From: Bradyrhizobium sp. ORS 285
Lineage (GTDB): Bacteria; Pseudomonadota; Alphaproteobacteria; Rhizobiales; Xanthobacteraceae
DNA: 64,000 bases
Direction of reading: 5' to 3'
NCBI RefSeq assembly: GCF_900176205.1
Contig: NZ_LT859959.1
Location: forward strand, 310,001 to 374,000
In this document: positions 11,471 through 49,438 of the stretch, piece by piece
How the letters are laid out: each line of letters begins with the position of its first letter
Position numbering within the stretch: the first letter of the stretch is position 1
Notes under the pieces: generated by a model
Told to the model about the DNA's origin: nothing
Databases searched by the model: none
The model's input: the letters and a program-made list of their open reading frames with translations, nothing else
Translations under genes and position numbers: made by a program

Positions 11471-14125
11471 TCACCAGGCGTAACGCACGACGCCCTTGCC
11501 GGCGTAGGAACGCGTGACGTTCGAAAATTCACCCTCGAAGGTCGCAGCTGCCGCCCATCCGTTCGTCCACTTCATCTCGGCGGATGCGGTCGTCAGCGCG
11601 GATTCGCTGGCCTGCGCCGCGCCGTTGACGACGAAGCTCGCTGCCGGCAGCGCCTGGAAGGTCGCTGCGACCGCGCGGTTTGGATTGAAGTCGTGCGCCC
11701 ACGCCGCGCGGCCGCGCAGGGTCAGCACGGCGTCCTGCAGGGCATAGGATTTGTCGCTGCGCAGGCCGATCTCGGTGCGCGTGTCGGTCGATGTCCGGGC
11801 TGCATAAGCGAGCGCAAAGGCGCCGCTGCCGGAGACCGCGCGCTCGCTATAGCCCGGCAGATCCAGGGCGGTCACCTGCGCCGCGGCATAAGGCGTGAAG
11901 CCGATGCCGCCGATCCAGGGCGCGACGAAGCGGGTGCCGGCTTCGACACGACCTGAATAGGCATTGGCGTTGAACGCGGCGCCCAGATGATCGATACCGG
12001 CAGCGGTCACGATGCGGTCGGTCGTGACCGCCTGCCAGCCATAGGCGAGCGACGCCGCGACATAGGCCGGGCCTTGCACATGACGCAGATAGGCGCCCGC
12101 CTGGAACAGGTCGGAGCGGCCCCAACCCTGGCCGGAGACGTTGAAGTTGGTGCCACCGCCCGCCAGCGCGAAGCCGGCAAGCGTGTTCGGAGACATCTGA
12201 TAGTCGGCGCCGACGGCCGTGCCGTACAGGTTGCTGGTCGTGTTGGTCGAGCCGGCGGCCGCATTGCCGTCGGTGGTCTGAGAGCCGCCGAAGCCAGCGG
12301 CCCACATGCTCCAGCGTGAGGCGAACGGGGCCGCCGGCGCCTTGGTGGCCATCGCGAATGGGTCGCCGCGCCGGCGTGCCGCATAGGCGCTGGCGCGATC
12401 GTCTTCCTCGGCATAACCCGTCGCCGCGCCTGGAGCGCCCGTCGGGCCGCCGCGCTGCGCCGGATCGGTCAGCAGGCCCATGAACTGCCCCATCGCGCTG
12501 AACGTCGTCTGCTGTGGCGACGTGCCGAGCTGGCCGGCGACCTGGGTCAGGCCGGCTGGCGTCAGCGACGCGTAGGCGGCGGAAATGCCGCCGGCGGTGT
12601 TGAAGGCGTTCGTCAGCGCGTCACCGGCAGCGCGCTGATTGCCGTTCAGACCGGCGATGCCGGCATAGCCCAGCGCGACGTTTAGATAGACGTTGTTGGC
12701 GTCATAGCTGAGCGACCTCGTCAGCGTCGTCGAGTTCGTGGCGACGATCGGGGCGAAGCTGCCGGACACGCCGCCGCTCGCGGTGAGGATGGTGTAGGTC
12801 TTGGCGACATAGTTCCCCGATGCGAAGGCGACGCTCACGGTGGCGCCGCCGAGGCTTGCGGTGCCGCTGACATTTGTCGTGGACGCGGTCGTGGGCGAGA
12901 CCTGCACCAGATAGATCGCCCCGGATTGGAAGGCGAGGTTGCCGGAGACGCCGAGCGAGCTGCCGGCGGTGCCGTTGCCGGGCGCCAGCGCGCCGCCGCT
13001 TGCAACCGTCGTGCGGCCGATCGTGCCGGTGCCGCTGAGGCTGCCCCCGGTGTTCACGGTCAGGCTGCCGGCGGACGCGAAGTTGCCGTCGACGCGCAAG
13101 GTGCCGGCATTGACGTTGACGGCGCCGGTGTAGGTGCTGGTGCCGGTCAGGGTCCAGGTCGAGTCCCCGACCTTGTTGAAGGTGGAGAAGTCACGATACT
13201 GCGCGGCCGGTCCGAGCTGCGAGATGTCGAAGCTGGCGCTGCCGCTGCCGCCGAGCTGCAGCGTGTTGTTGAGGCTGCCGCCGACGAGGCCGTTGATGAC
13301 GGATCCCGGCAGGAGCGTCAGCGTGTTGCCGGGGCCAAAGAAGCTGATCCCGCCGTTGATCGTCCCGGCGTTGACGATCTGAGAGCCGGAGCCGGAGATG
13401 CCATAGGCGGCGCCGCTGATCGTGCCGTCATTGTAGATCAGAGAGTTGCTGCCGAGGGCGACACCGCCCCCTGAGCTGCTGCTGATCGTGCCCGAATTGA
13501 GAATTGCGAGAACACCGTAGCCGCCGCCGATGCCCAGATTTGTCCCGGTGATGAGGCCGCCCGCGAGGTTCGTGATGGTGCCCGAGCCGAATGGGCTGAG
13601 GAAGCCCGCCGCGCCGGAGATGGTGCCGGAATTGACGATGATGAAGGAAGAGTAGGCTTCGATCGCGTTGTTGTGTCCGGTGATGGTGGCGCCGGCTGCG
13701 TTCGAGATGGCGAGATCATAGCCCTGCACACCGTTCAAGCCGATGCCGGTGATGGCGCCTGCATTGATGATGCTGCCGTCGTGGATGTTCAGCCCGGCAT
13801 TCGCGCCGGTCACCGTGGCTCCCGAGGCGATATTGACCGCGACCCCTCTCTCGGATCCGGTGCCGTAGCCGAAGGTGCTGCCGCTCGTTCCGGGCGCGCC
13901 CCCGCCCTGGTTCGCGGTCGTGCCGGAGCAGGACGCAGTGACGTTGTCGGCGGCGGCCGGCGTACAGTCGGCGTTGGCCGCATTGGTGCCGAGCGCCAGC
14001 ACTGCAAGCCCGAGCGCTAGCGCCGAAACGGTGCTCTCATAAGGAAGCCGCCGGCGCTGCGGGGTGGGCTCGCGCAATGCACAGACGTCCCGATTGAGCT
14101 GCAATCCCATCCTCATTCCCATCAC
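11471..14125 (-). CDS. Autotransporter with C-terminal outer-membrane beta-barrel
   Basis: An 884-residue type V secretion protein. The long N-terminal extension and signal peptide (about 1-53, STVSALALGLAVLALGTNA then ANA|D) are followed by a repetitive Gly/Ser/Asn-rich passenger (about 60-480) with many NAGTI/NSGTI-type beta-helix turns and a PATR-like element (GTSTYTGAVNVNAGTLRV). The barrel (about 600-884) has SRWSMWAAGFGG, GFALAGGGTNF and PYAAAQVTALDLPGYSE, and ends in aromatic VRYAW as outer-membrane proteins do. The passenger probably mediates surface attachment. Several Met codons at the start (residues 1, 2, 4, 6) leave the exact start open. Confidence 0.9.
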   Translation of the reverse strand: MMGMRMGLQLNRDVCALREPTPQRRRLPYESTVSALALGLAVLALGTNAANADCTPAAADNVTASCSGTTANQGGGAPGTSGSTFGYGTGSERGVAVNIASGATVTGANAGLNIHDGSIINAGAITGIGLNGVQGYDLAISNAAGATITGHNNAIEAYSSFIIVNSGTISGAAGFLSPFGSGTITNLAGGLITGTNLGIGGGYGVLAILNSGTISSSSGGGVALGSNSLIYNDGTISGAAYGISGSGSQIVNAGTINGGISFFGPGNTLTLLPGSVINGLVGGSLNNTLQLGGSGSASFDISQLGPAAQYRDFSTFNKVGDSTWTLTGTSTYTGAVNVNAGTLRVDGNFASAGSLTVNTGGSLSGTGTIGRTTVASGGALAPGNGTAGSSLGVSGNLAFQSGAIYLVQVSPTTASTTNVSGTASLGGATVSVAFASGNYVAKTYTILTASGGVSGSFAPIVATNSTTLTRSLSYDANNVYLNVALGYAGIAGLNGNQRAAGDALTNAFNTAGGISAAYASLTPAGLTQVAGQLGTSPQQTTFSAMGQFMGLLTDPAQRGGPTGAPGAATGYAEEDDRASAYAARRRGDPFAMATKAPAAPFASRWSMWAAGFGGSQTTDGNAAAGSTNTTSNLYGTAVGADYQMSPNTLAGFALAGGGTNFNVSGQGWGRSDLFQAGAYLRHVQGPAYVAASLAYGWQAVTTDRIVTAAGIDHLGAAFNANAYSGRVEAGTRFVAPWIGGIGFTPYAAAQVTALDLPGYSERAVSGSGAFALAYAARTSTDTRTEIGLRSDKSYALQDAVLTLRGRAAWAHDFNPNRAVAATFQALPAASFVVNGAAQASESALTTASAEMKWTNGWAAAATFEGEFSNVTRSYAGKGVVRYAW

Positions 14126-14348: not shown

Positions 14349-15533
14349 CTAATCCCCGCCATCCTCCGGTCGCACCAGCTTGATGTCCTGCGCGGCGGCC
14401 CAGGACCAGATGTCCTGGCGCTTCAGCGCGGTGGCCATCAGCTCGGGAAACTGGTGCGGTGTGCAGGCGAACACCGGGCAGCCGAGCGAGGCGATGATTG
14501 CGGCGTGCCTGGCGTCGTAGGCGGGGCGGCCGTCGTCGTTGAGCGCGAGCAGCACGATCAGGTTGACACCGGAGGAGACCAGCGCCTTGGCGCGCGCCAG
14601 CATCTGCTCGGCGATGCCGCCTTCGATCAGGTCGCTGATCAGAACCATGTGCGTCCGTGTCGGCTCGTGCACAAGACGCTCGCAATAGGCCAGCGCCTGG
14701 TTGATGTCGGTGCCGCCGCCGAGCTGCACAGAGAACAGCACCTCGACGGGGTCAGCGAGCTCCTCGGTGAGATCGATGATGCTGGTGTCGAACACGACGA
14801 GCTTCATCGCGATCGCCGGGATCGACGCCAGCACCGCGGCGAAGATCGAGGAGTAGACCACGGAGGTCCCCATGGAGCCCGATTGGTCGACGCAGAGGAT
14901 GACCTCCTCCAGATTGGTCCGCCGCGCCGCGCGGGCGTGACCGACCAGCGTCTCCGGCACGATGGTGCGATGCTCGGCCTGCCAGTGCCGCAGGTTCTTT
15001 CCGATCGTGCGCGGCCAGTCGATGTCACCAGCGCGCGGCCGCCTTGTGCGGCGGCGGCGGTCGACTGCGCCGCGGATGGTCTCGGTGGTGCGGGCGTCGA
15101 GCTTCTCCATCAGGTCCTTGACGACCTTCGCCACCACCTCGCGCGCCGTCGCCTTGGTCTTCTCCGGCATCACCGAGCGCAGTGCCATCAGATCGGCGAC
15201 GAGATGCACGTCGGCTTCGAGCGCTGCGAGAAATTCCGGCTGCAGCAGCATCTCCTTCAGCCCGAGCCGCTCGAACGCATCCTTCTGGATCACCTGCACG
15301 ACCGGCGCCGGAAAGAACTCCCTGATGTCGCCGAGCCAGCTCGCCACCCGTGGCGCCGAGCCGCCGAGCCCGCCACGGCGTCCGCCGCCGCGCTTGCCGC
15401 CTGAGCCGGCGTCATAGAGCCCGGCGAGCGCGGCATCGAGCCTGCGGTCGCGATCCGACAGGCCGGCCTGATCGTCGCCGCCGAGCACGAGGCGCCAGCG
15501 GCGATTGCGCTCGGCGTCAGCATCATCGCTCAT
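14349..15533 (-). CDS. VWA-domain protein, last gene of the SWIM-MoxR operon
   Basis: 394 residues. The N-terminal half is charged and helical (VVAKVVKDLMEKLDARTTE). The VWA domain starts near residue 205 and has a complete MIDAS: D216, S218 and S220 in CVDQSGSMG, the Thr in LGGGTDINQA, and the Asp in LISDLIEGG. The protein should bind Mg2+ and a partner. VWA proteins of this CoxE-like kind usually work with MoxR AAA+ ATPases, and such an ATPase is encoded two genes upstream. The ATG overlaps the stop of the DUF5682-like gene by four bases, so translation is coupled. It is the promoter-distal gene of the operon; 14126-14348 beyond it contains no recognisable gene. Confidence 0.88.
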   Translation of the reverse strand: MSDDADAERNRRWRLVLGGDDQAGLSDRDRRLDAALAGLYDAGSGGKRGGGRRGGLGGSAPRVASWLGDIREFFPAPVVQVIQKDAFERLGLKEMLLQPEFLAALEADVHLVADLMALRSVMPEKTKATAREVVAKVVKDLMEKLDARTTETIRGAVDRRRRTRRPRAGDIDWPRTIGKNLRHWQAEHRTIVPETLVGHARAARRTNLEEVILCVDQSGSMGTSVVYSSIFAAVLASIPAIAMKLVVFDTSIIDLTEELADPVEVLFSVQLGGGTDINQALAYCERLVHEPTRTHMVLISDLIEGGIAEQMLARAKALVSSGVNLIVLLALNDDGRPAYDARHAAIIASLGCPVFACTPHQFPELMATALKRQDIWSWAAAQDIKLVRPEDGGD

Positions 15534-17905
15534 CGCTTGGCATCCTTCATCGGCCGGTCTGCGCCGAGGATCGTCAGAAGCAGCGGCAGCGCGGCCTCGA
15601 AATCGGCAGTTCCGGCAGGCAGCGGCGTCAGCGGCTGCAAGGGCGCGACCTCGGTCGTCGTCGCCACAGCCAGCGGACGCTGTTTCGCGAGCTCATCGAG
15701 CAGCCGCCGTCGCTCGTTGCGATCGAAGCTCGAGAAAGCGCGGCGCATCACAGGCAGCAGATTGTTGAACGCCTCGTCATCGATCGCCGCGAGCCAGCCG
15801 TCGATGATCCGGCGCAGCGCGTGGTCGTGCAGCAGCACCTGGCCGCTCTGGCCGAGAAAGCCGTCGAGCCAGTCGCCGGCCTGCAAGGTCGGCACGCTGT
15901 GCGAGAGTGCGCGCGACAGAGCGAGCGCCGTCTGCTCCGGCGAGACCACGCCGTGATCATAGAGCGCGCGGCTCGCGAGTCCCTTCAACAGGGGATGCGC
16001 CGCCGCATCATTGGCGACGGATGCCAGCGCGCGCCGCCATCCCTCGCGCAGGCCGGCATCCTCGATCAGCCCGATCGCAGCGTCGAGCCGCGCCAGCCTG
16101 CCCCGCAGATCGGCCGCGACATCAGCCTGCAGGTTGCGGCAGGCATAGACGAGCCCGGCGCAGATCGCCTCGACCAGGCTGATCACCAGCAGCCGCAGCG
16201 CCTCGGTCGGCAGCTCGCGCGCCGTGCCATAGCGCAGGATCTCGGCCAGCGGCGGCACGGCCTCGGTAAGATTCGTGACGTCGCTGGTGGCCGCCGAGCG
16301 CTGCTGCAGCAGCGCGATCGTGGTCTCGGCGGCCTCGCTCAGGCCGGCTTCGAGACAGCCGCGCACGATGGCGGCGACCATGTTCAGCGACGTCGCCGTC
16401 TGCGCGTTGCTGACCGCGGCATTGCCCGCGGCCTGCGCGACCGTCGTGCCGTGCACCAGCGCCTCGACCAGGCGCACCGAGAATTCCGGCTCCCAGCGCA
16501 GCCGCCAGTTCTCACGAAAGGTGCCGCGGCTCTGTCCCGATCCTTGCAGCCGTCCCCACGGCACCTGGATCAAAGCGAGGCGATGCAGCAGTTGCGACTT
16601 GGCGAGACCCGCCTCGCTGCGCAAATCGAGCGCGACGTCACTGTCCAGCGCCTCGGGCTTGAGCTTCAGCTTGCGCTGCCAGCGCGCGAGATCCGCGGCG
16701 AGAGGCATCTGTGGCACGCTGTCGTCGATCTCGCCGACACGTTGCCCGATGATGAGCTGCTGCTCGATCAGGCGAAACAGCGCGGTCTCGCCTTCGCAGA
16801 GCGTGGCAAGGCTCGCCTCGCGCATCTCCGCCAGTCCCGGCAGCGCCACGTCGCGCAACGCGGCGAGCGTGATCGCCAGCCGTGACGCCTCGATGACGGA
16901 CGCCGTCGACGCCGGCCGGCCGTTTCGCCGCAGCAGCTCGGCCACACGCGCCTGCCAGCGCGTCGTGAAGCCGGTGGCATCGAGTGCAGTCGCCTGGTCG
17001 TGCTGGAGCCCCTGCCACAGATGCGCGTACCAGCCGGGAGAGATCACCCCGGCGCCATAGCCGGAGGACGCGGCGAGCCGCGTCTCGGTCCACGGCACCC
17101 AGGTCGCGGTCACCTTGGTCAGTCCCTTGAGCAGTGCACGATCATCCTTCAGCGCGACCTTCTTGCGCAACGCCGGCACGTGCCAGGCGCCGCAAACCAC
17201 GGCGACAGGGCCATCCTGCGCGCCCAGCGCGGCCGCGATTTCCAGGCGCATATGCGCCTCGCGGCGCAGCTCGCGCTCCGCTTCGTCCGCAGGCTGATAG
17301 GGCAGGGGATCGATCTTCTCGCGCAGCGCGCCGATCGCCGCTTCCAGCGCGGCAAAGATCTCCGGTCCGTGCGTGCCCTGCTCGACGAGCGCATTCCACC
17401 AGGTCTCGCTGTCGTCATAGCCGGCCAATGTCGAGAGATAGGCCAGGGGATCGCGCCGGATCTGCGCAAGCTGCGGATCGATCGTCTCAGGCTGATCCGG
17501 CGCAGCTGCGCCGGCGTCCTCCGGTGAGGCCTCGCCCGCATCATCCTCTTGCTTCGCCGCTTTGGCCCGTTCGGCGAGCCGATGCGACGCCGGAAGATCG
17601 ATGAAGCGGACCGGGCGTCCCTTCTCCAGCGCCCAGCGGATCGCCTGCCATTCGGGCGAGAACATCGCGAACGGAAAGAAGCTCGCATTCGCCGCGTCGT
17701 CCTGCGCGTGCACCAGCAGCGCGATCGGCGGCACCATCGCTGGCGAGGCGGCGAAACTGATCAGCTCGTCGGCATCCGGCGGCCCTTCGATCAGCACGAC
17801 CGCGGGATCGGCGGCATCGAGCGCCGTGAGCACCGCGCGTGCCGAGCCCGGCCCGTGATGCCTTATGCCGAGGAGATGCAGGCGATCGGGCTGAGCAGAT
17901 GCCAT
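15530..17905 (-). CDS. DUF5682-like protein with N-terminal TraB/TIKI-type domain
   Basis: 791 residues. The N-terminus LHLLGIRHHGPGSARAV (H16/H17) followed by AVVLIEGPPDADEL (E40) and, near residue 240, VAVVCGAWHVPALRKK reproduces the GxxH...E...GxxH pattern of the TraB/PrgY/TIKI superfamily. Some members of that superfamily are metal-dependent hydrolases. Conserved-looking ETWWNALVEQG and REAHMRLEIA lie between. The remaining 500 residues are helical and rich in Leu/Ala, with no motif I recognise. It starts one base after the MoxR stop and overlaps the VWA start. The hydrolase assignment is inferred from motif resemblance only. Confidence 0.82.
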   Translation of the reverse strand: MASAQPDRLHLLGIRHHGPGSARAVLTALDAADPAVVLIEGPPDADELISFAASPAMVPPIALLVHAQDDAANASFFPFAMFSPEWQAIRWALEKGRPVRFIDLPASHRLAERAKAAKQEDDAGEASPEDAGAAAPDQPETIDPQLAQIRRDPLAYLSTLAGYDDSETWWNALVEQGTHGPEIFAALEAAIGALREKIDPLPYQPADEAERELRREAHMRLEIAAALGAQDGPVAVVCGAWHVPALRKKVALKDDRALLKGLTKVTATWVPWTETRLAASSGYGAGVISPGWYAHLWQGLQHDQATALDATGFTTRWQARVAELLRRNGRPASTASVIEASRLAITLAALRDVALPGLAEMREASLATLCEGETALFRLIEQQLIIGQRVGEIDDSVPQMPLAADLARWQRKLKLKPEALDSDVALDLRSEAGLAKSQLLHRLALIQVPWGRLQGSGQSRGTFRENWRLRWEPEFSVRLVEALVHGTTVAQAAGNAAVSNAQTATSLNMVAAIVRGCLEAGLSEAAETTIALLQQRSAATSDVTNLTEAVPPLAEILRYGTARELPTEALRLLVISLVEAICAGLVYACRNLQADVAADLRGRLARLDAAIGLIEDAGLREGWRRALASVANDAAAHPLLKGLASRALYDHGVVSPEQTALALSRALSHSVPTLQAGDWLDGFLGQSGQVLLHDHALRRIIDGWLAAIDDEAFNNLLPVMRRAFSSFDRNERRRLLDELAKQRPLAVATTTEVAPLQPLTPLPAGTADFEAALPLLLTILGADRPMKDAKR

Positions 17906-17906
17906 G

Positions 17907-19010
17907 TCACATCACGTCGCGGATGGCGCCGTAGAGATCGGCCCACGGCTTGCGCTCGCGCACGACGGTTTCGAGATATTCCTGCAGCACCACCTTGTCC
18001 TGCACCGGGTCCTTGACGATCGCGCCGACCAGATTGGCCGCCATGCTCTGCGCATCGATCTCGCCGGAGCCGAAATGGCCCGCCTCGGCCCAGGCGCCGA
18101 TCGTCACCGCGATCGCCTCCGCCGTCGATAGCGAGCCGGAGGGTGATTTCAGCTTCAGCCGGCCATCGAGCGTCTGGCCGTCGCGCAACTCGCGGAACAC
18201 CGTGACGATGCGCATGATCTCCTGATCGGCCGGCGCGATCTTGGGCAACTCCAGGCCGCCGCCGATCTCGCCGACGCGCTTGGTCACGATCTTCACCTCT
18301 TCATCGAGGTCCCCCGGCAGCGGCAGCACCACGACGTTGAAGCGCCGCTTGAGCGCCGACGACAATTCGTTGACGCCCTTGTCGCGCGCATTGGCGGTGG
18401 CGATCATGTTGAAGCCGCGCGTGGCGTGAATGGAGTCGTTGATCTCCGGGATCGGCATCAGCTTCTCCGACAGCACGGTGATCAGCGTGTCCTGCACGTC
18501 CGAGGGCATGCGGGTCAGCTCCTCGAAGCGCACGATCCGCCCCGCCTCCATTGCCCGCATCAGCGGCGTCGCCACCATCGCCTCGCGCGACGGGCCTTTG
18601 GCCAGCAGCAGCGCGTAGTTCCAGCCATAACGGATCTGGTTCTCGTCGGTGCCGGCCGTGCATTGCACGATCATCTCGGACGAGCCGGAGATCGCGGCGG
18701 CCAGATGCTCCGACACCCACGACTTCGCCGTGCCGGGCACGCCGAGGATCAGGAGCGCGCGGTCGGTCGCGAGCGTCGCCACCGCGGTCTCGATCAGCCG
18801 GCGGTTGCCGATATATTTCGGCGAGATCTCGACGCCGGATCTGGTGCGGCCGCCCATCAGATAGGTGACGACCGCCTGCGGCGACAACCGCCACTGCGCC
18901 GGCCGCGCGCGGGTGTCCTCCTGCGCCAGCGCCTCGAGCTCATGGGCATGCAGCGCCTCAGCGGAGCGGCGCAGCTGGGCGTCTTGTGAGCTCACATCGG
19001 CAGTGGTCAT
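17907..19010 (-). CDS. MoxR-type AAA+ ATPase
   Basis: 367 residues from the ATG at 19010, with GGGAG seven bases upstream; the open frame extends further upstream but has no start signal. Walker A is GVPGTAKS (90-97), Walker B RIVRFEEL (158-165), sensor 1 MIATAN (about 202-207), and the arginine finger lies in LKRRFNVV (221-223). MoxR ATPases form hexamers that remodel client proteins, usually together with a VWA protein, and one is encoded in the same operon. The gene lies 29 bp after the DUF5691-like gene and 1 bp before the DUF5682-like gene. Confidence 0.9.
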   Translation of the reverse strand: MTTADVSSQDAQLRRSAEALHAHELEALAQEDTRARPAQWRLSPQAVVTYLMGGRTRSGVEISPKYIGNRRLIETAVATLATDRALLILGVPGTAKSWVSEHLAAAISGSSEMIVQCTAGTDENQIRYGWNYALLLAKGPSREAMVATPLMRAMEAGRIVRFEELTRMPSDVQDTLITVLSEKLMPIPEINDSIHATRGFNMIATANARDKGVNELSSALKRRFNVVVLPLPGDLDEEVKIVTKRVGEIGGGLELPKIAPADQEIMRIVTVFRELRDGQTLDGRLKLKSPSGSLSTAEAIAVTIGAWAEAGHFGSGEIDAQSMAANLVGAIVKDPVQDKVVLQEYLETVVRERKPWADLYGAIRDVM

Positions 19011-19039
19011 GGGCGTACTCCCGGCATCATGTGGCGCGC

Positions 19040-20434
19040 TCACGCTGGCAGCGCGAGAACGAGATCGGTGAAATCCTTCGCCGCCCGGCTCGTCGAGAGC
19101 GGCAACGCTGCGAGCGAGGCGGTGAACGCGGCGATCGTCGCGGATGGCATCAGCGCGGCCATCAGCACCAGCCGTCCGTCGTCCTTCTGTGCGGCCGGCG
19201 TGGTCGCCTCCGCGAGCTCCTGAATGGTCTTCTGCCAGGCGGGCGACGCCAGCACGCGCTCGGCGATCGATGGGGCCAGCGGCTCGCGGGCCTTCGCCGC
19301 AAGCGACATCAAGGTGTATCCATTGAGCTGCTCGCCGGCCCCGAGGCGCGCGCCGATGATTCGCATCACCGTGTCGTCGTCGCCCTCGGCTGCGGCTGTG
19401 TCCATCAGCAGCATCAGCACGCGATGTTCGCTCGGCGGCAGCGCCGCGATCAGCGCTTCGGGCGGTGCGCCGACGGCTCCTGCGAGCGCGGAGAGCTGCA
19501 GGCCGCCGAACAGCCGCTCGCGCAGGGCTTCGGTCTCCTGCCATTTCAGCCCGTCGCTCGGCAGCTTGAAGGTCAGCGTCGCTGCCGAGCCCAGGCCGAT
19601 CTTGGACAGAAGCGAGCTCGCGCGCTGGAAGCATTGCGCGGCTTCCGCAAGACGCGTCCCGCGTTCGGCACGTTCGGCGATGCGCATCAGCAATTGAGCG
19701 CCGAGCTGCTTGACGCTGTCGGCGCGATCGGCGCTGAGGCCCTCCAGGAACGGTCTGTCCTCTTCGCTAAGACCGACCACCAGCGCATCAAGCAGCGCGG
19801 CGCGCACCGGTGCGGGCTCGCTCTTCCAGACGGATTCGATCAGCGCGCGGCCTTCGGCTGGATTGTCGCGGCGAATCCCGGCGACGAACGCCCGCCGCTG
19901 TGCCCTCGGGAAGGTGGTCCAGGTCTCGGCGGTGATGCGCTCGAAGAACAGGCCCTTCGCGGCGTCCTCGTCGGAGTCTGCGGCGATCAACGCGATAAAG
20001 GCGCGTTCGGCGAGGCCCTGGTCGCCGGCTTCCGCCTTGATGTGAGCGGCAAAGTCCGGCAGGTCGAATGGATGCAGCCGGCAGCCGCTGGCATTGATAC
20101 GGCGCAACGCCAGCGGCAGGACGTTCGACGCGAGCGACTTCTCGACGCTGCGCGCCAAGGCCTTCAATGCGCGCCGCGCAGGCTCCGGCAGGATCGGCCG
20201 CGCATCCTCGTGCAGCCGCCGCGCGGCGTCCGGAACGGCATCGGCGACCGGCGCCGGCGTGCCGGCAAAACGCTGCCACTGCGCAGCCAGCGCGAGCAGC
20301 GGCAGCGCCGGCTCGCGCTCCCGCGGCAACAACTCGGTGAGGGCGGCCGGCACGGCTAGCGGCTGGCGCGTCAGGCCGAGCAGGAAGGACTGGCGCAGCC
20401 GGGCGTGGGTCTGCGGATCGATCGGGTTCGCCAT
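19040..20434 (-). CDS. DUF5691-like helical protein of the SWIM-MoxR operon
   Basis: 464 residues from the ATG at 20434 (MANPIDPQTHARLRQSFLLG), with GAGGA six bases upstream. The upstream gene's TGA ends three bases before. The sequence is almost entirely amphipathic helix with recurring Leu/Ala patterns (FIALIAADSDEDAAKGLF, LLDALVVGLSEEDRPFLEG) and looks like HEAT-type repeats. No catalytic motif is visible. It resembles DUF5691 proteins by gene context and overall pattern, but I could not verify that by search. It may be a scaffold between the SWIM protein and the ATPase; this is a guess. Confidence 0.78.
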   Translation of the reverse strand: MANPIDPQTHARLRQSFLLGLTRQPLAVPAALTELLPREREPALPLLALAAQWQRFAGTPAPVADAVPDAARRLHEDARPILPEPARRALKALARSVEKSLASNVLPLALRRINASGCRLHPFDLPDFAAHIKAEAGDQGLAERAFIALIAADSDEDAAKGLFFERITAETWTTFPRAQRRAFVAGIRRDNPAEGRALIESVWKSEPAPVRAALLDALVVGLSEEDRPFLEGLSADRADSVKQLGAQLLMRIAERAERGTRLAEAAQCFQRASSLLSKIGLGSAATLTFKLPSDGLKWQETEALRERLFGGLQLSALAGAVGAPPEALIAALPPSEHRVLMLLMDTAAAEGDDDTVMRIIGARLGAGEQLNGYTLMSLAAKAREPLAPSIAERVLASPAWQKTIQELAEATTPAAQKDDGRLVLMAALMPSATIAAFTASLAALPLSTSRAAKDFTDLVLALPA

Positions 20435-20436
20435 CG

Positions 20437-21867
20437 TCAATCCTCGTGATGCCAACGTCCGAGCGGCGTGTCGGCGGCGAGCACCTGCGCGATGCGGCCG
20501 TCCCACAGGCACAGCATCGACAGGCCGTCGAGACCAAGCAGCGGCATCAACTGATCGGACTGGCCGCGCTCGACCGCGATGGCCCCGCCGCTGGCGTCAG
20601 TGATCGCAAGCGCGCCCTTGCCTGCGGTGCGCAGCCCGACATTCGCCAGCAGCAATGGCCAGCGCTCCAGCCATGGCAGCACGCTGAGCGTCGCCGCGTA
20701 GTCCTTGAGCGCCGCCGCGAGGCCTGGGAGCGGGTGCGGCCACGACGCGGCGACCCCGGTCTTGCGACTCGCCAAGAGTCCGCGCAACGGTGCGGCTGAC
20801 GGATAGAACACGATCTCGCCGTCGATCACCTCGCCGGGTGTGAACGGAAAGCCGGTGCCGCCGCCGGACACCGGTACGAAGTCGATCAGCACAGCGGCGC
20901 GGGGCTGGCTGACATCGTCGCGTGCGTTGACGAGCCAGGTCTCCAGACGTCGCAGCTTGTCGGGTTGTACCTCGGACAGATTGGCGGCGACGATCCAGAC
21001 GCTGCTTGCGCGCGGCGCCGTGACGTCGGCCAGCAGCTCCTCGCGGCGCACTGACCAACCGACCGCGCGCCTGACATCCTCGCGCAGCGGCGCGGGCAGG
21101 CGATCCTGGTGCCGATAGGCTGAGGCGATCAACGTCATCGCGCCCAGCCGCTCGATCGCGAGATCGGCGCGGCGCTCGTCGCCGACGCGAAACAGCTCGG
21201 TGCCGAGCGCTTCGAGCCGCGCGGCCAGGCCGCCGGCCTTGGCATCGACGAGACGCGTCGACAGCGTGCGCCCGGCCGCTGCCGCGCGCGTGGCGAAATC
21301 GGCGAGGCCCTGATTGAGCTGGTCCGCGATCCAGCGGTCGAGCTCGTCCAGGCCGGCGAGGATCGCGGTCTCGCGTTCGGCCTTGATGCGCTCGCGCTGC
21401 GCCTCGGCGCGGGCAGCCGCCTTCGGATCGACCGTGGCCGGCGTCGCAGCTTCGGCCAGCGCCGCATCGAGCGACGGCGCCGCGCTGGTCTCTTCGCCTT
21501 CGGTCTTCGGCTTGCCCGGTGCGCGGCCGCTGCTGCCGCGCCGCCGTGCGCTCCAGTCCTCGACCCATTGCGGCGGGCTCGCGCTCTCGAACCGCTCCGG
21601 CTTATCCACGCGCAGCCACAGTACGGCGAGCACATGCTTGCAGGGAAACTTGCGGCTCGGGCAGGTGCATTTGTAGCCGCCGCCATCGGCGGCGGTCACG
21701 ACCCGGTAGGGCGTCGCGCCGGACCCCTGGCATTCGCCCCACAGCGTCTCGGCGTCAGTGCTGGCGGCCAGCACCGGCCAGCTGGCGGGCTTCACCAGCT
21801 TGAGCGCTGCGGCAAGCGAGGCCTGGTCGGGGGCCAGCCCCTCGATCCGTTCGCGTGTCAGAGACAC
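20437..21867 (-). CDS. SWIM zinc-finger protein, first gene of the SWIM-MoxR operon
   Basis: 476 residues from a GTG at 21867, with GGGAG five bases upstream. The SWIM motif CxC-x6-CxH is complete: C67, C69, C76 and H78 in YKCTCPSRKFPCKHVLAV. SWIM domains bind zinc and contact DNA or proteins. A basic, low-complexity linker (about 108-170) leads to a larger C-terminal region containing DLAIERLGAMTLIASAYRH. As the first gene it probably carries the operon promoter in the repeat-containing gap upstream. Its role may be target recognition for the MoxR/VWA pair, which is inferred from position only. Confidence 0.87.
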   Translation of the reverse strand: MSLTRERIEGLAPDQASLAAALKLVKPASWPVLAASTDAETLWGECQGSGATPYRVVTAADGGGYKCTCPSRKFPCKHVLAVLWLRVDKPERFESASPPQWVEDWSARRRGSSGRAPGKPKTEGEETSAAPSLDAALAEAATPATVDPKAAARAEAQRERIKAERETAILAGLDELDRWIADQLNQGLADFATRAAAAGRTLSTRLVDAKAGGLAARLEALGTELFRVGDERRADLAIERLGAMTLIASAYRHQDRLPAPLREDVRRAVGWSVRREELLADVTAPRASSVWIVAANLSEVQPDKLRRLETWLVNARDDVSQPRAAVLIDFVPVSGGGTGFPFTPGEVIDGEIVFYPSAAPLRGLLASRKTGVAASWPHPLPGLAAALKDYAATLSVLPWLERWPLLLANVGLRTAGKGALAITDASGGAIAVERGQSDQLMPLLGLDGLSMLCLWDGRIAQVLAADTPLGRWHHED

Positions 21868-21904
21868 TCACTCTCCCAACCGGTCGATCGCAATGGCGCA
21901 TTCC

Positions 21905-22009
21905 CTAAAGCGCGATGAGATCAGGATGAATCGTCATCGCGCTTTAGGTTATTGTTTGCGCATGATCTTTTCGGAAAACCGCTGCGCACTTTTCCGGATC
22001 ATGCTTTAG
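21905..22009 (+). repeat. 105-bp dispersed palindromic repeat, copy 1
   Basis: It begins CTAAAGCGCGATGAGATCAG and ends GGATCATGCTTTAG. The first 40 bases fold back on themselves (AAAGCGCGATGA...TCATCGCGCTTT), and the second part forms another hairpin (GCATGATC...GATCATGC). An inverted copy at 56792-56896 differs at one base. It lies 38 bp upstream of the SWIM gene start. Confidence 0.9.
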
Positions 22010-22745
22010 CAGATGGCAGGAGAGCCGCACAACAATTCAGGCGGGATGCCGCCGATTCGCCCGGCCGCTACGTTGCACCGAGGAATGAGAGAATCTGGTG
22101 GCAACGCGGAGAGCATGTGGCCGGCGAGGGAGGCGCGACAGTGTCCGGCCTGGCATGACCTCCGTTGCGATTATCCAGTTCCCAGTCGGGAAAACCGCCC
22201 GCATGTGGCGGGCAAGATATCGCTCAGCGCTGCGAACAGAGCGCGCTCGAATCGATTTCATCCGAGCGACAGTTGCAAGCTTGGCAACTGCGCGCAGGAT
22301 GTAATGCTGCGGTAAGGCCGGGACTCCATTGTCCTCGCGTCCTTGCGGTTGAAGACGCATCGAATTCGCAAATCCATTTGCGTTGTCGGCATTGATAGTT
22401 TGCCGACGGGCAATGTGTGGTTCGGCCGCTAAGACAATGGATCGACGTTGCAGAGCTGAACCGACCTCACAGGGTCGGCTCCGTCCCGACTGCGACGTCT
22501 TCCATCATGAGCTGGTGCCGCATGGCTTCGAACGTCGTCGGAATCCAGCGAGCAGGTCGTCCGGGCTGTGACCCCAGCCCCACACACACCCGGGCGACCT
22601 GCGATGATGGCGCTTCAGTCCGTTTCATCCCGTCGTCTCCGCATGGTCTAGCTCTTGAGAGAGAGCCGACGCTCTGTGTAAGGATGCGGTAAGCGCCAGC
22701 AACGAGTCTCCTCCGCACACCGCTCAGCGAGTGAGGGAGAACGGA
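22010..22745. other. Non-coding stretch between the SWIM operon and a small secreted-protein gene
   Basis: No frame in either direction has convincing codon use or a start signal. The only structure seen is an imperfect dyad at 22270-22290 (CAGTTGC...GCAACTG) and a short hairpin near 22197-22213 (GCCCGC...GCGGGC). The last 100 bases probably hold the promoter of the downstream gene, but I see no clear -35/-10 pair. Confidence 0.5.
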
Positions 22746-33258: not shown

Positions 33259-36200
33259 ATGCAATGCGCGGTATGCGGCACAGCCAATCCTCCCGAAAAC
33301 CGCTACTGCCACCATTGCGGTGGGCCATTCTCCCTGCGTTGCCCCCACTGCGATCATGAAAACTGGCCGAGCGCGCGCTTTTGCGGCTCGTGCGGATCGT
33401 CGCTGGGGGCGCGGCCGACGAAGTCCCGGGCCGGTCGGCGCCCCCTCAGCGAGCGCAAGCAGGCGACAGTGCTCTTTGCCGACATCGTCAGCTCGACAGA
33501 GCTGGTCGTCGGCCTCGACCCAGAGCAGGCGATGGAGCGTCTGGCGCCAGCCGTCTCGCTCATGTGCGAGGCGGTCGAGCGCTGCGGGGGGCACGGTCGT
33601 TCGCACCCTGGGTGATGGTGTCATGGCGCTGTTCGGCGCTCCTCTCGCGCAAGAGGGGCATGCGATTCTCGCTTGCGAAGCTGCCCTCAGCATGCAGGAG
33701 GCATTTCCTCCCCAGGAAGGCGGGTTGCGACTACGGATTGGATTGCATTCGGGAGAAGTGGTCTCGGAGTTGTCCGCCGGCGAACTGAGCACCGGAGGTG
33801 CTCACGGCTCGACGATCCACCTGGCCAGCCGCCTGCAGCAGATCGCCGAGCCGGGAGGCACGTGCATCACCAAGGACTGTCATCAGCTGGTCCGTTCCTG
33901 TTGTGACGTGCGCTCGCTGGGTCTCCATGCCTTGAAGGGGTTTCCCGAACCGCTCGAGATCTACAGCCTTCTCGGTTTCAAGCCTGCGGTCGCCAGTCAG
34001 CACTTCCGCGGCGCGAACCTCACGTCCTTCCGCGGCCGCGATCCGGAGATCGCCATGCTGCAGCGTGCCCTGCGCCGGGCAGAGAGCGCGGAAGCCGCGG
34101 TGATCGGCTTGTCGGGCGTCCCCGGCGCCGGCAAGAGCCGGCTCTGTTTCGAGTTCGCGCAGTGGTGCCGCGGCCGCCTCATCCCCGTTGTCGAGGCCCG
34201 GGCGCTGCTCTATGGCCACGCGACCCCATTCCAGCCCGTGCTGGAATTCCTGCGTGTGTTTTGCCACATCGCCCCATCCGATGATGCGACGGTCGCTGGC
34301 GATCGCATCCGTGAGCGCCTTTCGACCATCGGTCCGACATTCGATGCCGATTTCCCTCTGGTCTGCGAGTTTCTCGGGCTATCGCATCAAGACAGCGCGC
34401 CCATCCTTTTGTCGCTCACGCCCAAGGCCAGACTCAGGCGCCTGCTTGACATCATTCGTCACATGGTGCGGCAAGGCAGTACGACCACTTCCGTCATTAT
34501 CGTGGAAGATCTGCACTGGCTCGATGAAGCAAGCGAGGACTTCGTCGCGACGCTGGTGGACGCGGTCGAAGGGACACGGACGATGCTCGTCCTGACCTTT
34601 CGGCCCGGCTATGCGGCACCGTGGATGAGTTGCTCCTACTACAAACAGATCGCGCTCGTCGATCTCACGCCAACCGAGGCCGATGATCTGGTCCGCGAGC
34701 TGATCGGGGACCGCCCCGAGCTTCGTGAGATTTGCCAGAGAATCGCAGAGAGAAGCGGCGGCAATCCGTTTTTTGCCGAAGAGCTGGTGCGCTCGCTCGC
34801 AGAAAACGGCAGCATTTTCGGCGATCCAGGCGACTATCTGCTGGGCTTCATGGCCGCTGAAGGTGCGCTTCCGACCACTGTGCAGGCCGTCATTGGAGCG
34901 CGCATCGATCGGCTGAGGGACGTCGACAAGGCGATTCTGCAGCTTGCCGCGGTGATCGGCGCGGAATTCCCGCGGGGGATGCTCGAGAAGCTCGCGCCGG
35001 CGCCGCCCAGCGAGATCGAAAGTAGCCTCGACTCTCTGTGTGATGCTGAATTGTTGCAGCGACAGGCGGCACGGGATGGCATCTGGTTCGAGTTTCGACA
35101 CCCTCTCATCCAGGAAGTCGCCTACGGGGCCCAGCTCAAGACGCATCGCAGTCTTCTTCATGCCGCTGTTGCCCAGGCCATGGAGCAGTTCTATGAGGAC
35201 CGGACCGACGAGTTTTCTGGCCTTATTGCCTATCATTACGAGGCTGCAGGCCATGTCCTTCAGGCTGCAAAGCACGCCGCGCGAGCTGCAATCTGGGTTG
35301 GCTCGACCCATTCTGCGCAAGCGATCAAGCATTGGGGCAAGGTCCGAAGTCTCTTGCAGACGCAGCCTCGGTGCAGCGCAACCGACGAGTTGAGGATCAT
35401 GGCCAGTGGCCAACTCGCCTGGCTCGGCTGGCGCGAGGGCCTGACGGCAAATGAAGGCAAGCCGTTCATCGATGAAGCGTTGACGTGGTCTCGCGAGACG
35501 GACAACAGGATGATCCCGCTCCTGCTGCTTGTCGACGGTCGGATTACCGTGACGAGCGGCGGCGCCGCCGACACTTATGTCGGGCGTGTCAAGGAGGGTC
35601 TCTCGCTGCTGAAAGAAGGAATCGACATCGGACGGATGGCAACGCTGAACGTCGCGCTGAGCCAGGCCTATGGTTGGGCGGGCATGTTGAACGAGGCGCT
35701 GGCTGCGAATAGTGTCGCGATGGATGGCATATCCCGGATCGAGAAATTCGATCATCAGTTCCTCGGATACAGCGTGGAGCATTGGGCTCTCGGCTTGCGG
35801 GGACGCATCCTCGTTCGACTTGGCCGCTTCGAGGAGGCCGCCAAGTGCTTCGATCTGCTGCTGGGAATCGAGGAAGACCTCCAGGATCCGACGGCCCGGC
35901 TGATCCCGCATCTGGGTTACGTCGATCTGGCCTGGTGTTTCGGCGATCCGGCCCTGGCGGAACGCCATGCGCTGCGCCTCGCGCAGATCGCCGAGAAGCA
36001 CCAGAGCCCTTATCTGCAGGTCTTTGCACTTGCCTGCATGGGAACGGCGAAGTGCGTCGCGGGAGACTTCACGGCGGCAGTGCATGACCTTGTCGCGGGC
36101 GTGGAGTATCTGCGCAAAACGAAGGCCGCGATGGAATATGAGCCTGAAATTCTGGCGAGCCTGGCTGATTGTCATGACCAGAACGGCGATGCCGAACTTG

Positions 36201-36451
36201 CCATGCAGGTCGCAAGGGAGGCGATTCAAGTCGCCCAGCAGCGAAACGCCCGTCTCCCCGAGTGTCGCGCCAGTATCACGTTAGGAAAGACGCTGATCGC
36301 AGCGGGAGGCGCGTGCGCCAACCATGAAGCCGCCGCGCTTTTTGCACGAGCTGATCAACTGATGCGGATGACAGGAGCCTGCATCTACGAACCTTTGCTG
36401 GCGCAGGCCCGTAAACACCTCCCGATCAGCGGCCAGCATTCGATGTGTTGA
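33259..36451 (+). CDS. Zinc-ribbon class III cyclase fused to AAA ATPase and TPR region, frameshifted
   Basis: From the ATG at 33259 a double zinc ribbon (CAVCGTANPPENRYCHHCGG, then CPHCDHENW and CGSCG) leads into a class III nucleotide cyclase (KQATVLFADIVSSTEL with metal-binding Asp). In a run of six G at 33586-33591 the frame shifts. The rest of the cyclase (VVRTLGDGVMALFG, LRIGLHSGEVV) is in the next frame. An AAA_16-type ATPase (SGVPGAGKSR Walker A, IIVEDLHWLDE Walker B) and about 500 residues of TPR-like repeats follow to 36451. Removing one G would restore about 1063 residues. This is either a pseudogene, a slipping tract or a sequencing error. Such proteins are signalling regulators with unknown inputs. 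Confidence 0.82.
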
Positions 36452-47250: not shown

Positions 47251-47961
47251 CTACCGCATGAGCTGGATGATCAGCGGCGCGAGCGCGACGTTCATCAGCC
47301 CGACCAGCACCATCACGAGGCCGGCGATCGCGCCTTCCTCGCGGCCGATCTGATGCGCCCGCGCGGTGCCGGCGCCGTGGGCGCCGACGCCGAACAGCGC
47401 GCCCTTGGCTAGCGTCGAGCGCAGCGGCAGCCGCGCCAGCACGATGTCGCCGACGGCGGCGCCAATGATGCCGGTGAGCACGACGAACACAGCAGTGAGG
47501 TCGGGACTGCCGCCGATCTCGCCGGAGACCTCCATCGCGAACGGCGTGCTCATCGAGCGCGGGAGCAAGCTCAGGCGCAGCTCGCCGTCGATGCCGAGGA
47601 CATAGGCGAGCGCCCAGCTGGTGGCGACCGCGGTCAGGCTGCCCGCGATCATGCCGGCGAGCAGCAGCGGCCAGCGCCGGCGGATCAGCGCGCGCTGCTC
47701 ATAGATCGGCACCGCGAAGGCGACGGTGGCGGGACCGAGCAACGCGACGAGCCAATGCGTGCCGCGGATGTAGTCGCGATAGGAGACGTTGAGCGCGAGC
47801 GCCGCGATCATCAACAGCGCCGGCGCGACCGCGAGCGGCATCAGCCACCAGCGCGGCCAGCGCCGGTGCACGCGCTTGGCCAGCAGATACAGCAGGATCG
47901 TCGCCAGCGACCAGACCGCAGCCTGGACCAGCGGCTCACGCCACAGCGTTGCCAGCGTCAT
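47251..47961 (-). CDS. lrgB: LrgB/CidB-family membrane protein
   Basis: 236 residues with about six membrane helices. The family signature is clear: HWLVALLGPATVAFAVPIYE, RSMSTPFAMEVSGEIGGSPD, LTGIIGAAVGDIVLARL and GVGAHGAGTARAHQIGREEG. LrgB-type proteins act with LrgA-type proteins in export of small metabolites and in autolysis control. Its start overlaps the lrgA stop region by 26 bp, and lrgA is just upstream on the same strand. It is convergent with the amidotransferase gene; the stop codons are one base apart. Confidence 0.92.
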   Translation of the reverse strand: MTLATLWREPLVQAAVWSLATILLYLLAKRVHRRWPRWWLMPLAVAPALLMIAALALNVSYRDYIRGTHWLVALLGPATVAFAVPIYEQRALIRRRWPLLLAGMIAGSLTAVATSWALAYVLGIDGELRLSLLPRSMSTPFAMEVSGEIGGSPDLTAVFVVLTGIIGAAVGDIVLARLPLRSTLAKGALFGVGAHGAGTARAHQIGREEGAIAGLVMVLVGLMNVALAPLIIQLMR

Positions 47962-48355
47962 GACGTTCGGTCCAGCGATAGCAGAGGTCGACGGTCAGCG
48001 CGGTCACGCACATCACGGCGGTCGTGCTGACGATGATGACGGCAAAGATCTTCAGGCCCAGCAGGCCGAACAGCTCGCGATGGTCGAGCAGCGCCAGCAC
48101 GGCCGGCACGAAGAACAGCAGCATCTCGGCCAGCATCCAGTTGGCGCCGCGCTTCATGTTCGCGACTTTCAGCCCGCCCGCCAGGAACAGCACGAGCGCC
48201 AGCGCCATGCCGATGATGCCGCCCGGGAGCGGCAGGCCGGTGGCGCGGGCCAGGCCTTCGCCCGCCGCCCAGAACAGGCCGAGCAGGACGATCTGCACCA
48301 GCCGGTTGCGGCGGAGGAGGCGGTGAAGGGATACGGAAATGCTGCGCTGCGTCAT
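47936..48355 (-). CDS. lrgA: LrgA/CidA-family holin-like protein
   Basis: 139 residues from the ATG at 48355 (MTQRSISVSLHRLLRRNRL); the open frame runs far upstream but the rest is antisense to the LysR gene. Four membrane helices are visible. Family motifs are LPLPGGIIGMALALVLFLAG and FFVPAVLALLDHRELFG, as in CidA/LrgA. It forms the membrane partner of LrgB. A divergent LysR-type gene begins 108 bp away, and a perfect 12-bp palindrome lies in the gap, as in cidAB systems controlled by CidR. Confidence 0.9.
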   Translation of the reverse strand: MTQRSISVSLHRLLRRNRLVQIVLLGLFWAAGEGLARATGLPLPGGIIGMALALVLFLAGGLKVANMKRGANWMLAEMLLFFVPAVLALLDHRELFGLLGLKIFAVIIVSTTAVMCVTALTVDLCYRWTERHDAGNAVA

Positions 48356-48373
48356 TGGACGGTCCAAATGGTC

Positions 48374-48385
48374 TTGCTGCAGCAA
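48374..48385. promoter_or_regulatory. Palindrome between lrgA and the LysR gene
   Basis: TTGCTGCAGCAA is a perfect 12-bp palindrome 19 bp upstream of lrgA in the divergent gap. A related TGCAGCA follows at about 48400. It may be the recognition site of the neighbouring LysR-type regulator. The remaining gap (48386-48463) is AT-rich and suits divergent promoters. Confidence 0.4.
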
Positions 48386-48463
48386 AGATATGTCGCAATG
48401 CAGCATGTACAAAATGAATTGAATGAATGAATTTAAGTCGAAACTGGAATAGCCTATGCCATT

Positions 48464-49345
48464 ATGGAACTCAAAGCCCTCAGAACCTTCGTCGAGGTCG
48501 TCCGCCAGGGCGGATTTTCCCAGGCCGCCAAGGTGGTATTCGCCACGCAGTCGACGGTCAGCAAGGCGATCAAGCAGTTGGAGGACGAGCTCGGCCTGCC
48601 GCTGCTGGACCGGCTCGGCCACAAGAGCCGCATGACCGCCGCCGGCGAGATCGTCTATCGCCGTGCGATCCGGCTGCTGGCGGAGCGGGACGACCTGCAG
48701 GCGGAGCTCGCGGAGCTGCGCGGGCTCAAACGCGGCGTGCTGCGCCTCGGCCTGCCGCCGATCGGGTCGAGCACGCTGTTCGCCCCCTTGTTCGCCTTCT
48801 ATCGCCAGCTTTATCCGGATATCGAGATTCGCCTGGTCGAGCACGGCAGCGACCGGCTCAGCGAGCTGCTCGCCGCCGGCGACATCGATTTTGCCGGCCT
48901 GCTGCCGCCGATCGCAGACGAGTTCGCGGCGCAGATCGTGCGCCGTGAGCCGCTGATGGCGCTGATTGCCGTGGATCATCCGCTGGCGCAGCGTGAGTCC
49001 ATCTCGCTCGCCGAGTTGCGCGACACGCCCTTCGTGCTGTTCGAGGCCGGCTTCGCCCTCAACCGTATTCTCCGCGACGCCTGCCGCCGCAACGGTTTCG
49101 AGCCGGTCGTCGCGGCGCGCAGCACCCAGATCGACTTCATCGCCGAGCTCGCCGGCGCCGGCCTGGGCGTCGCCTTCCTGCCGCGCATGATCGCGACCCA
49201 GCGCACGCAGGTGCCGATCAGCCTCGTGCTGCTCGACGAGCCCGAGACCGAATGGACCTTGGCAATGGCGTGGCGGCGTGGGGCCTATTTGTCGCCTGCG
49301 GCGGCCGCGTGGCTCCGGCTTGTGCGCGAGCGTGGCGAAGCTTGA
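48464..49345 (+). CDS. LysR-family regulator next to lrgAB
   Basis: 293 residues (MELKALRTFVEVVRQGGFSQ). The N-terminal winged helix shows AAKVVFATQSTVSKAIKQLE, the usual LysR recognition helix. The effector domain (about 90-290) has VLRLGLPPIGSSTLFAP and LGVAFLPRMIA. This kind of regulator (CidR-like) next to lrgAB responds to metabolites such as acetate or pyruvate in other bacteria; here the effector is unknown. It is divergent from lrgA, which is its probable target. Confidence 0.9.
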   Translation: MELKALRTFVEVVRQGGFSQAAKVVFATQSTVSKAIKQLEDELGLPLLDRLGHKSRMTAAGEIVYRRAIRLLAERDDLQAELAELRGLKRGVLRLGLPPIGSSTLFAPLFAFYRQLYPDIEIRLVEHGSDRLSELLAAGDIDFAGLLPPIADEFAAQIVRREPLMALIAVDHPLAQRESISLAELRDTPFVLFEAGFALNRILRDACRRNGFEPVVAARSTQIDFIAELAGAGLGVAFLPRMIATQRTQVPISLVLLDEPETEWTLAMAWRRGAYLSPAAAAWLRLVRERGEA

Positions 49346-49438
49346 GCCCTGTGCGACGATGTCGCGGCATACGCCGAGGAACGTGCGAGGAGGCGGACGG
49401 TTGGCGACCACCGACTGTCCGACCGCCGAGGCTGCGTC

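Follow-up and report, generated by a model that had tools for sequence, protein, structure and literature searches.

A conserved five-gene MoxR-VWA cassette of Bradyrhizobium, a variant of YehL-type systems, with RNA-repair genes beside some of its relatives

MoxR-VWA pairs are widespread and, to our knowledge, few have a known client. YehL is given in passages of PMC3893208 as one of seven named MoxR subfamilies. In E. coli K-12, yehL (MoxR), yehM (DUF5682), yehP (VWA) and yehQ (SWIM) stand together, and DUF4132 and WGR genes adjoin them. Here we describe a related cassette in Bradyrhizobium sp. ORS 285, whose genome of 7.8 Mb is a single contig (NZ_LT859959.1). The stretch analysed, called the window below, comprises 64,000 nucleotides (contig positions 310,001 to 374,000), and the cassette occupies positions 14349-21867 on its minus strand, with genes for a SWIM protein, a DUF5691 protein, a MoxR ATPase, a DUF5682 protein and a VWA protein. 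The cassette is genuine and conserved, and its five proteins appear to form a machine that is uncharacterised so far; because of its relation to yehLMPQ and to the named YehL subfamily we regard it as a variant of YehL-type MoxR systems already known, not as a new kind. The cassette includes a candidate enzyme of its own and is found in several phyla, and its relative in E. coli is nearly core. Among the matches listed by a literature search, there was no mechanism study of DUF5682, DUF5691 or the yeh genes.

From the SWIM gene to the VWA gene the successive spacings are 2 bp, 29 bp and 1 bp, followed by a 4-bp overlap, which confirms the tight same-strand packing reported in a preliminary description of this DNA. 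The SWIM zinc-finger protein (476 aa, GTG start, 20437-21867) matches Pfam SWIM at 29.3 bits over residues 64-84, and its finger, C67-x-C69 ... C76-x-H78 (21634-21669), reads in the translation as had been described. The weakly HEAT-like DUF5691 protein (464 aa, 19040-20434) scores 88.7 bits against its Pfam family, as obtained on a reference version two codons longer. The MoxR-type AAA+ ATPase (367 aa, 17907-19010) matches AAA_5 at 118.8 bits, and the DUF5682 protein (791 aa, 15530-17905) matches at 772 bits the family to which E. coli YehM also belongs. The CoxE-type VWA protein (394 aa, 14349-15533) matches VWA_CoxE at 188.5 bits and contains the full metal ion-dependent adhesion site (MIDAS) ascribed to it, residues D216, S218, S220, T275 and D301 (14631-14888). 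The Pfam scores of all five proteins exceed the curated cut-offs.

The cassette and yehLMPQ have MoxR, DUF5682 and VWA genes in the same order, and a SWIM protein is encoded within the same gene run. The window MoxR protein is 40% identical to YehL over 369 columns (E 5e-76), with DUF5682 and VWA genes also downstream of its gene as in the YehL subfamily, and the VWA protein is 35% identical to YehP. However, E. coli has DUF4132 instead of DUF5691, its SWIM gene is longer and lies at the opposite end, and its DUF5682 protein is only 27% identical to that of the window. We refer to the window's form as type I and to the order DUF4132, MoxR, DUF5682, VWA and longer SWIM protein as type II. In profile comparisons between the two types, MoxR and VWA match over their full length. 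Comparison of the window SWIM protein with YehQ gave nothing useful by BLAST, and the profiles match only after the finger (probability 71, E 3.8e-5); DUF5691 matches the HEAT region of DUF4132 weakly (probability 13, E 0.0023). In a MoxR tree built from the two cassette types, without RavA or CoxD, the 40 type I rows part from the 10 type II rows with a single label change, although some long branches meet. As judged from these alignments and profiles, the two types share one plan, namely a SWIM protein, a large helical protein, MoxR, DUF5682 and VWA, and yehLMPQ is a diverged relative of the window cassette.

Type II is present in three Bradyrhizobium genomes (L092-L094), and its plan was found in 6 of the 8 type II loci from an even draw of 398 Pseudomonadota genomes (the phylum draw). 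The other two tell against reading the cassette as one machine: a VWA or SWIM gene was not found in the stretches of L117, which a contig end cuts, and L119. DUF4132 occurs in 10 of the 398 genomes, comprising all 8 with type II and 2 without DUF5682. One genome (G252) carries both cassette types on separate contigs (L108, L109). In E. coli, at least 80% of yehLMPQ is present in 5162 of 5426 genomes, nearly always on the chromosome, and this near-core status suits a core function. Strains with a yehQ deletion and with a yehQ plasmid appear in a butanol-tolerance study, in passages that do not include the result (PMC6442406).

The distribution of the cassette was surveyed in 80 loci (L012-L091), which are the best-scoring of 567 confirmed relatives in the named genomes searched and hence similarity-selected. 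Genes were assigned with our own profiles; the short loci L001 and L003-L011 were excluded from the order tally, alignment A3 (DUF5682) is without L037 and L089, and alignment A2 is without L007. The complete five-gene set is present in 73 of the 80 loci. Sixty-three are colinear with the window (4 of them with a split or extra gene call), 9 have SWIM and DUF5691 divergent, and 1, from Akkermansiaceae (L049), is reordered. All 7 incomplete loci (L068, L075, L082, L084, L086, L087 and L091) lie at contig ends, and a SWIM relative was detected in 79 of the 80. By record title the loci belong to Pseudomonadota, Planctomycetota, Acidobacteriota, Myxococcota, Verrucomicrobiota and Actinomycetota, and annotated plasmids extend the range to Deinococcus taeanensis and Hymenobacter. 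In the Hymenobacter copy (L148), a single fusion protein of 1009 residues contains both SWIM (306 bits) and DUF5691 (76 bits).

The even draws gave the same picture of coupling. DUF5682 was found in 14 of the 398 Pseudomonadota genomes, including the window's own, and DUF5691 exceeded its cut-off in 7, exactly the genomes with the strong form of DUF5682 (>650 bits). Two further genomes have DUF5691 at about 19 bits, below the cut-off, and are without DUF5682. In a draw of 146 genomes from the genus, DUF5682 was found in 22, as 16 strong copies (one of them a split gene, 511 + 178 bits) and 6 weak ones, and DUF5691 in 16, again exactly the strong ones. The co-occurrence gives a Fisher p of 3e-15 in the phylum draw and 1e-21 in the genus draw, both with shared ancestry ignored. 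Six type I regions from the phylum draw (L106, L107, L108, L110, L111 and L112) are all colinear. The five genes form one conserved unit, as the preliminary description had proposed.

A conserved sixth gene was considered and rejected, as most neighbour clusters are confined to one or two genera. Two clusters span at least 4 groups (18 and 6 loci) at no fixed distance from the cassette, in gene calls that include shadow open reading frames (ORFs); from their sequences we take them for ABC-transporter ATPases and short-chain dehydrogenases. Three extra tandem DUF5691 genes lie just 5' of the cassette in a Propionibacteriaceae bin (L057). The DUF5682 gene of the Bradyrhizobium genome G589 (C1:4654603-4656676) appears as two separate matches, and this copy may be broken.

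Ratios of non-synonymous to synonymous substitution rates (dN/dS) were computed against two orthologue sets, from Bradyrhizobium SSBR45G (L012) and B. aeschynomenes (L013). The values are 0.03-0.07 for MoxR and VWA, 0.12-0.14 for DUF5682 and 0.15-0.24 for SWIM and DUF5691, indicating purifying selection on all five genes. Since dN/dS ranges from 0.03 to 0.24 and gene order is kept across phyla, the cassette is not a chance arrangement; the higher values of SWIM and DUF5691 fit the expectation for recognition parts. In both orthologous loci the matching block runs from window position 21907 to 14357 or 14349, with flanking genes shared beyond it. The closest relatives of the DUF5682 protein are from Bradyrhizobium sp. 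SRS-191 and ORS 375.

The candidate enzyme of the cassette is the DUF5682 protein, for which a TraB/TIKI-type N-terminus had been proposed. The three N-terminal motifs on which that proposal rested are all present in the domain (approximately residues 1-275, 17081-17905). Residues that never vary in 96 aligned relatives include G13, R15, H16, P19, E40, G41, P42, P84, E85, D103, P105, R195, R215, E216, M219, G239 and H242. The motif order, GxxH, Glu, R[NED]xxM and GxxH, is that of TraB, and the two GxxH motifs are 226 residues apart, compared with 222-240 in the TraB rows that have both. The TIKI superfamily's first-motif His, the Glu after the second strand and the last-motif His correspond to the invariant H16, E40 and H242. 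DUF5682 differs in lacking the first-motif Glu (GIRH, not GExH), where all 96 sequences have I or V; this position is T or S in TraB rows with the motif and Glu in ChaN rows. It also has a large variable insert and a C-terminal part of about 480 residues. A motif pattern, written after the DUF5682 family had been seen, matches 89 of 93 DUF5682 ORFs, 8 of 11 TraB rows, 3 of 10 ChaN rows (2 of the 10 being empty), 0 of 1 Ere row and 1 of 2574 other ORFs. A match in the window at 47936-49789 was dismissed as chance, as Pfam assigns this ORF to LrgA.

Profile comparison by hhalign linked the domain most closely to ChaN, with an E-value of 1.1e-4 (probability 56) for the full N-terminus and 1.7e-6 (probability 90) with the variable insert removed. 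Controls gave 0.034-0.88 with the full profile, and two with the trimmed profile gave 0.42 and 0.57; the TraB-ChaN pair scored 0.0014 in the same test. Several results weaken the assignment. TraB matches only weakly (E 0.0047, probability 7, for the full profile and 0.0019 for the trimmed one), the single Ere row has no profile match (E 0.18), and an unrelated control, TraB against the C-terminal part of DUF5682, reached 0.012, so that the TraB match alone proves little. The TraB family (PF01963) did not match the DUF5682 protein in the Pfam scan or in the search of the window's genome. In sequence searches of the PDB, alignment A3 matched only stalk and designed helical proteins, and these in its C-terminal part, alignment A5 matched nothing credible, and the VWA protein had no match. 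ChaN is among the TIKI superfamily structures, for which a 2His/2Glu catalytic set is described in passages of PMC6254334. In our reading DUF5682 keeps two His and one Glu of this set, making H16, E40 and H242 candidate active-site residues, and the domain is probably TIKI/ChaN-like. The proposal thus holds for motif order, spacing and likeness to ChaN, and the more specific resemblance to TraB is not clearly above background.

The likeness to ChaN, a haem-binding family, also bears on an explanation in which the cassette matures a metalloenzyme: MoxR and VWA would insert a metal or cluster into a client, as CoxD and CoxE do, and DUF5682 would handle the metal or cofactor. The pairing of a MoxR ATPase with a CoxE-type VWA protein is common to both systems, with a strong VWA_CoxE match (188.5 bits) in the window and ChaN as the nearest profile of DUF5682, but the window cassette has three further conserved partners. 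When E. coli populations were evolved with copper, yehM was one of the genes that acquired mutations (PMC12409786), and PMC8533742 calls DUF4132/WGR proteins of the E. coli type MolR-like and possibly molybdate-related. The latter study, of Deinococcus radiodurans, reports in the same part that molybdate-metabolism genes, e.g. moeA and moeB, were unchanged. Among the neighbour clusters we saw no cofactor enzyme recurring beside the cassette, although no search was aimed at metal-enzyme genes. Likewise, without a targeted search, no CO dehydrogenase genes were noticed near it and no molybdenum hydroxylase client genes were among the matches listed for 25 of 108 neighbour families. We regard a maturation role as unlikely.

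A different process may be indicated by the genes that flank some relatives. Matches to RtcB, Pnkp ligase, Hen1, RlaP and RtcA came up in a Pfam scan of 98 of the 151 genes picked around 28 of the 80 type I loci. A targeted search covered 106 loci and found RNA-repair genes beside the cassette at 4 of the 93 type I loci and at 1 of the 13 of type II. At two of these they lie directly upstream on the same strand. In a Planctomycetota bin (L081), next to a divergent RtcR gene, Ro60-like, RtcB and RtcA genes precede SWIM through VWA on one strand; the gap between the end of RtcA (5956) and SWIM is 47-110 bp, depending on which of three possible starts (6004, 6040 or 6067) is used. At L019, RlaP, Hen1 and Pnkp precede the SWIM-to-VWA run by 42 bp. 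In Sphingomonas (L022) 45 bp separate the VWA gene from a convergent RtcA-RlaP-RtcB-Ro60-like group, behind which RtcR lies, and in Rhodobacteraceae (L038) one gene separates the cassette from RtcB, KptA, Ro60 and RtcR. Pfam confirms the L038 protein as Ro60, and the Ro60-like proteins encoded at L081 and L022 share 52-53% identity with it. At the type II locus of G302 (L113/L155), the distance from DUF4132 to RtcB and a Band_7 protein is 1.6 kb. Five Bradyrhizobium genomes (G565, G029, G589, G579 and G535) with RtcB 9-16 kb from a type I DUF5682 gene were not counted, because unrelated genes intervene in the fetched stretches. At one of these loci (L152; the others are L153, L154, L156 and L157) a TROVE (Ro-like) gene adjoins RtcB.

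According to passages of PMC7790460, rtcBA is controlled by RtcR, a sensor of tRNA halves with a cyclic-phosphate end; a word search of this paper found no mention of MoxR, SWIM or vWA. Four relatives of the window cassette stand beside or inside RtcR-controlled rsr-rtcBA or Pnkp/Hen1 operons. The flanks of the 80 loci amount to 0.95 Mb, and the Poisson chance of the adjacency is 3e-4 to 5e-4 at a guessed 0.15-0.3 expected repair clusters, in a test made post hoc with an estimated rate. We treat the RNA-repair link as a testable lead, not a result. It gives the cassette a concrete process that can be put to the test, for which E. coli K-12 is immediately suitable.

We tentatively favour, with somewhat less than even confidence, a reading in which the cassette is a single SWIM/HEAT-guided MoxR-VWA remodeller of a TIKI-like enzyme. 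The SWIM protein and its helical partner DUF5691 would form the recognition arm that chooses the target, the VWA protein would grip a protein client through its MIDAS metal site, and the MoxR ATPase would spend ATP to reshape the bound complex. DUF5682, whose gene adjoins the MoxR gene in nearly all loci seen, would be the enzyme that the machine activates or loads, with a TIKI/ChaN-like domain carrying the His/Glu/His set and a long C-terminal part. For the machine as a whole the likeliest setting would be the response to damage in RNA or in RNA-protein complexes, given that the cassette has RNA-repair genes at its side in four distinct lineages. We infer that the five proteins may assemble, that DUF5682 may be catalytic and that a role in RNA damage may extend to the window's copy. 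By sequence, the window MoxR protein comes closest to midasins among solved structures. Midasins are ATPases that remodel ribosome precursors, and the likeness may be an apt analogy for action on RNA-protein complexes. A stronger version, which we consider possible but doubtful, makes the cassette and yehLMPQ two branches of one RNA-damage machine. Its SWIM/HEAT sensor would recognise RNA that is damaged, or an RNA-protein complex that has stalled, for remodelling by MoxR-VWA, and the TIKI-type DUF5682 would cut protein within it, upstream of or beside sealing by RtcB or Pnkp/Hen1.

Several observations have to be set against an RNA-damage setting. Repair neighbours are absent from the scanned stretches at 89 of the 93 type I loci, and their presence at the others was noticed post hoc, in the Pfam scan of 98 neighbours. 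The window cassette itself has no RNA-repair genes nearby; RtcB genes of its own genome are far off, at 2.54 and 6.45 Mb, and in E. coli yehLMPQ and rtcBA lie at distant places. In the genus draw RtcB is only mildly commoner with DUF5682 (13/22 vs 47/124, Fisher p 0.098).

In another explanation the cassette would be a general quality-control machine for protein complexes, with a housekeeping client encoded elsewhere and the RNA-repair neighbours a coincidence of shared stress islands. No neighbour is conserved at a fixed place across genera, and the midasin match suits such a role. In D. radiodurans the DUF4132 and WGR genes are strongly induced on DdrO depletion, which points to a wider stress role, and passages of the same study call their role in the DNA-damage response undiscovered (PMC8533742). 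However, chance would hardly place the cassette close to, and co-directional with, RNA-repair operons of two different kinds, and we consider general quality control improbable, the least likely of the explanations weighed here.

A stress-response or anti-invader role had been raised at the outset, and the latter gained little. In that case invader sensing through SWIM and DUF5691 would free the DUF5682 hydrolase, by a logic like that of the MoxR-vWA ternary conflict systems (PMC7159879), which likewise combine MoxR, VWA and a third component. The window MoxR protein, however, scores 25 bits against bpMoxR, whose cut-off is 27. A word search of PMC7159879 found no mention of YehL, TraB, EreA or SWIM, and a 2016 RNA-repair review is merely cited there. 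The patchy occurrence of DUF5682 (in 14 genomes of the 398 in the phylum draw and 22 of the 146 in the genus draw) and the mixing of phyla in the MoxR tree speak for such a role; for type I, patchiness and mixing suit transfer and do not show conflict. Among 72,556 plasmid records, 36 carry DUF5682, some of these being chromosome-sized, and one type II plasmid copy adjoins a restriction-modification system; this is L151, a mobilizable Iodobacter plasmid with type I restriction-modification genes beside the cassette. Against such a role, DUF5682 is in only 1 of 50,697 phage records, and the E. coli type is nearly core (5162 of 5426 genomes). PADLOC gave no convincing match to the five proteins, with one weak ATPase match (E 0.00037), and defence models found among the 98 neighbour genes one reverse transcriptase, one AbiD and three mad2 (in the 25 of 38 families listed, without a baseline). 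The association found instead was that with RNA repair, and we hold a defence function to be rather improbable, preferring the guided remodeller.

Control of the cassette was also considered. SOS control was rejected, as four strict LexA-type patterns had 0 matches in 82 upstream stretches and the E. coli stretch (L002) had no box; a loose CTG-N10-CAG half pattern occurred in 21 of the 82 against 13 expected, too weak to use. A sigma-54 consensus scan of L081, L038, L022, L019, L155 and the window gave only scattered one-mismatch sites. The region 5' of the SWIM gene in the window (21868-22100) contains intergenic palindromes of the form CTAAAGCGCGATGA...TCATCGCGCTTTAG. Immediately downstream of the operon, 11471-14125 encodes an autotransporter with a PATR repeat. 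Further away, at 33320-36451, a protein of 1043 residues combines an adenylate/guanylate cyclase domain, an AAA_16 ATPase and TPR repeats.

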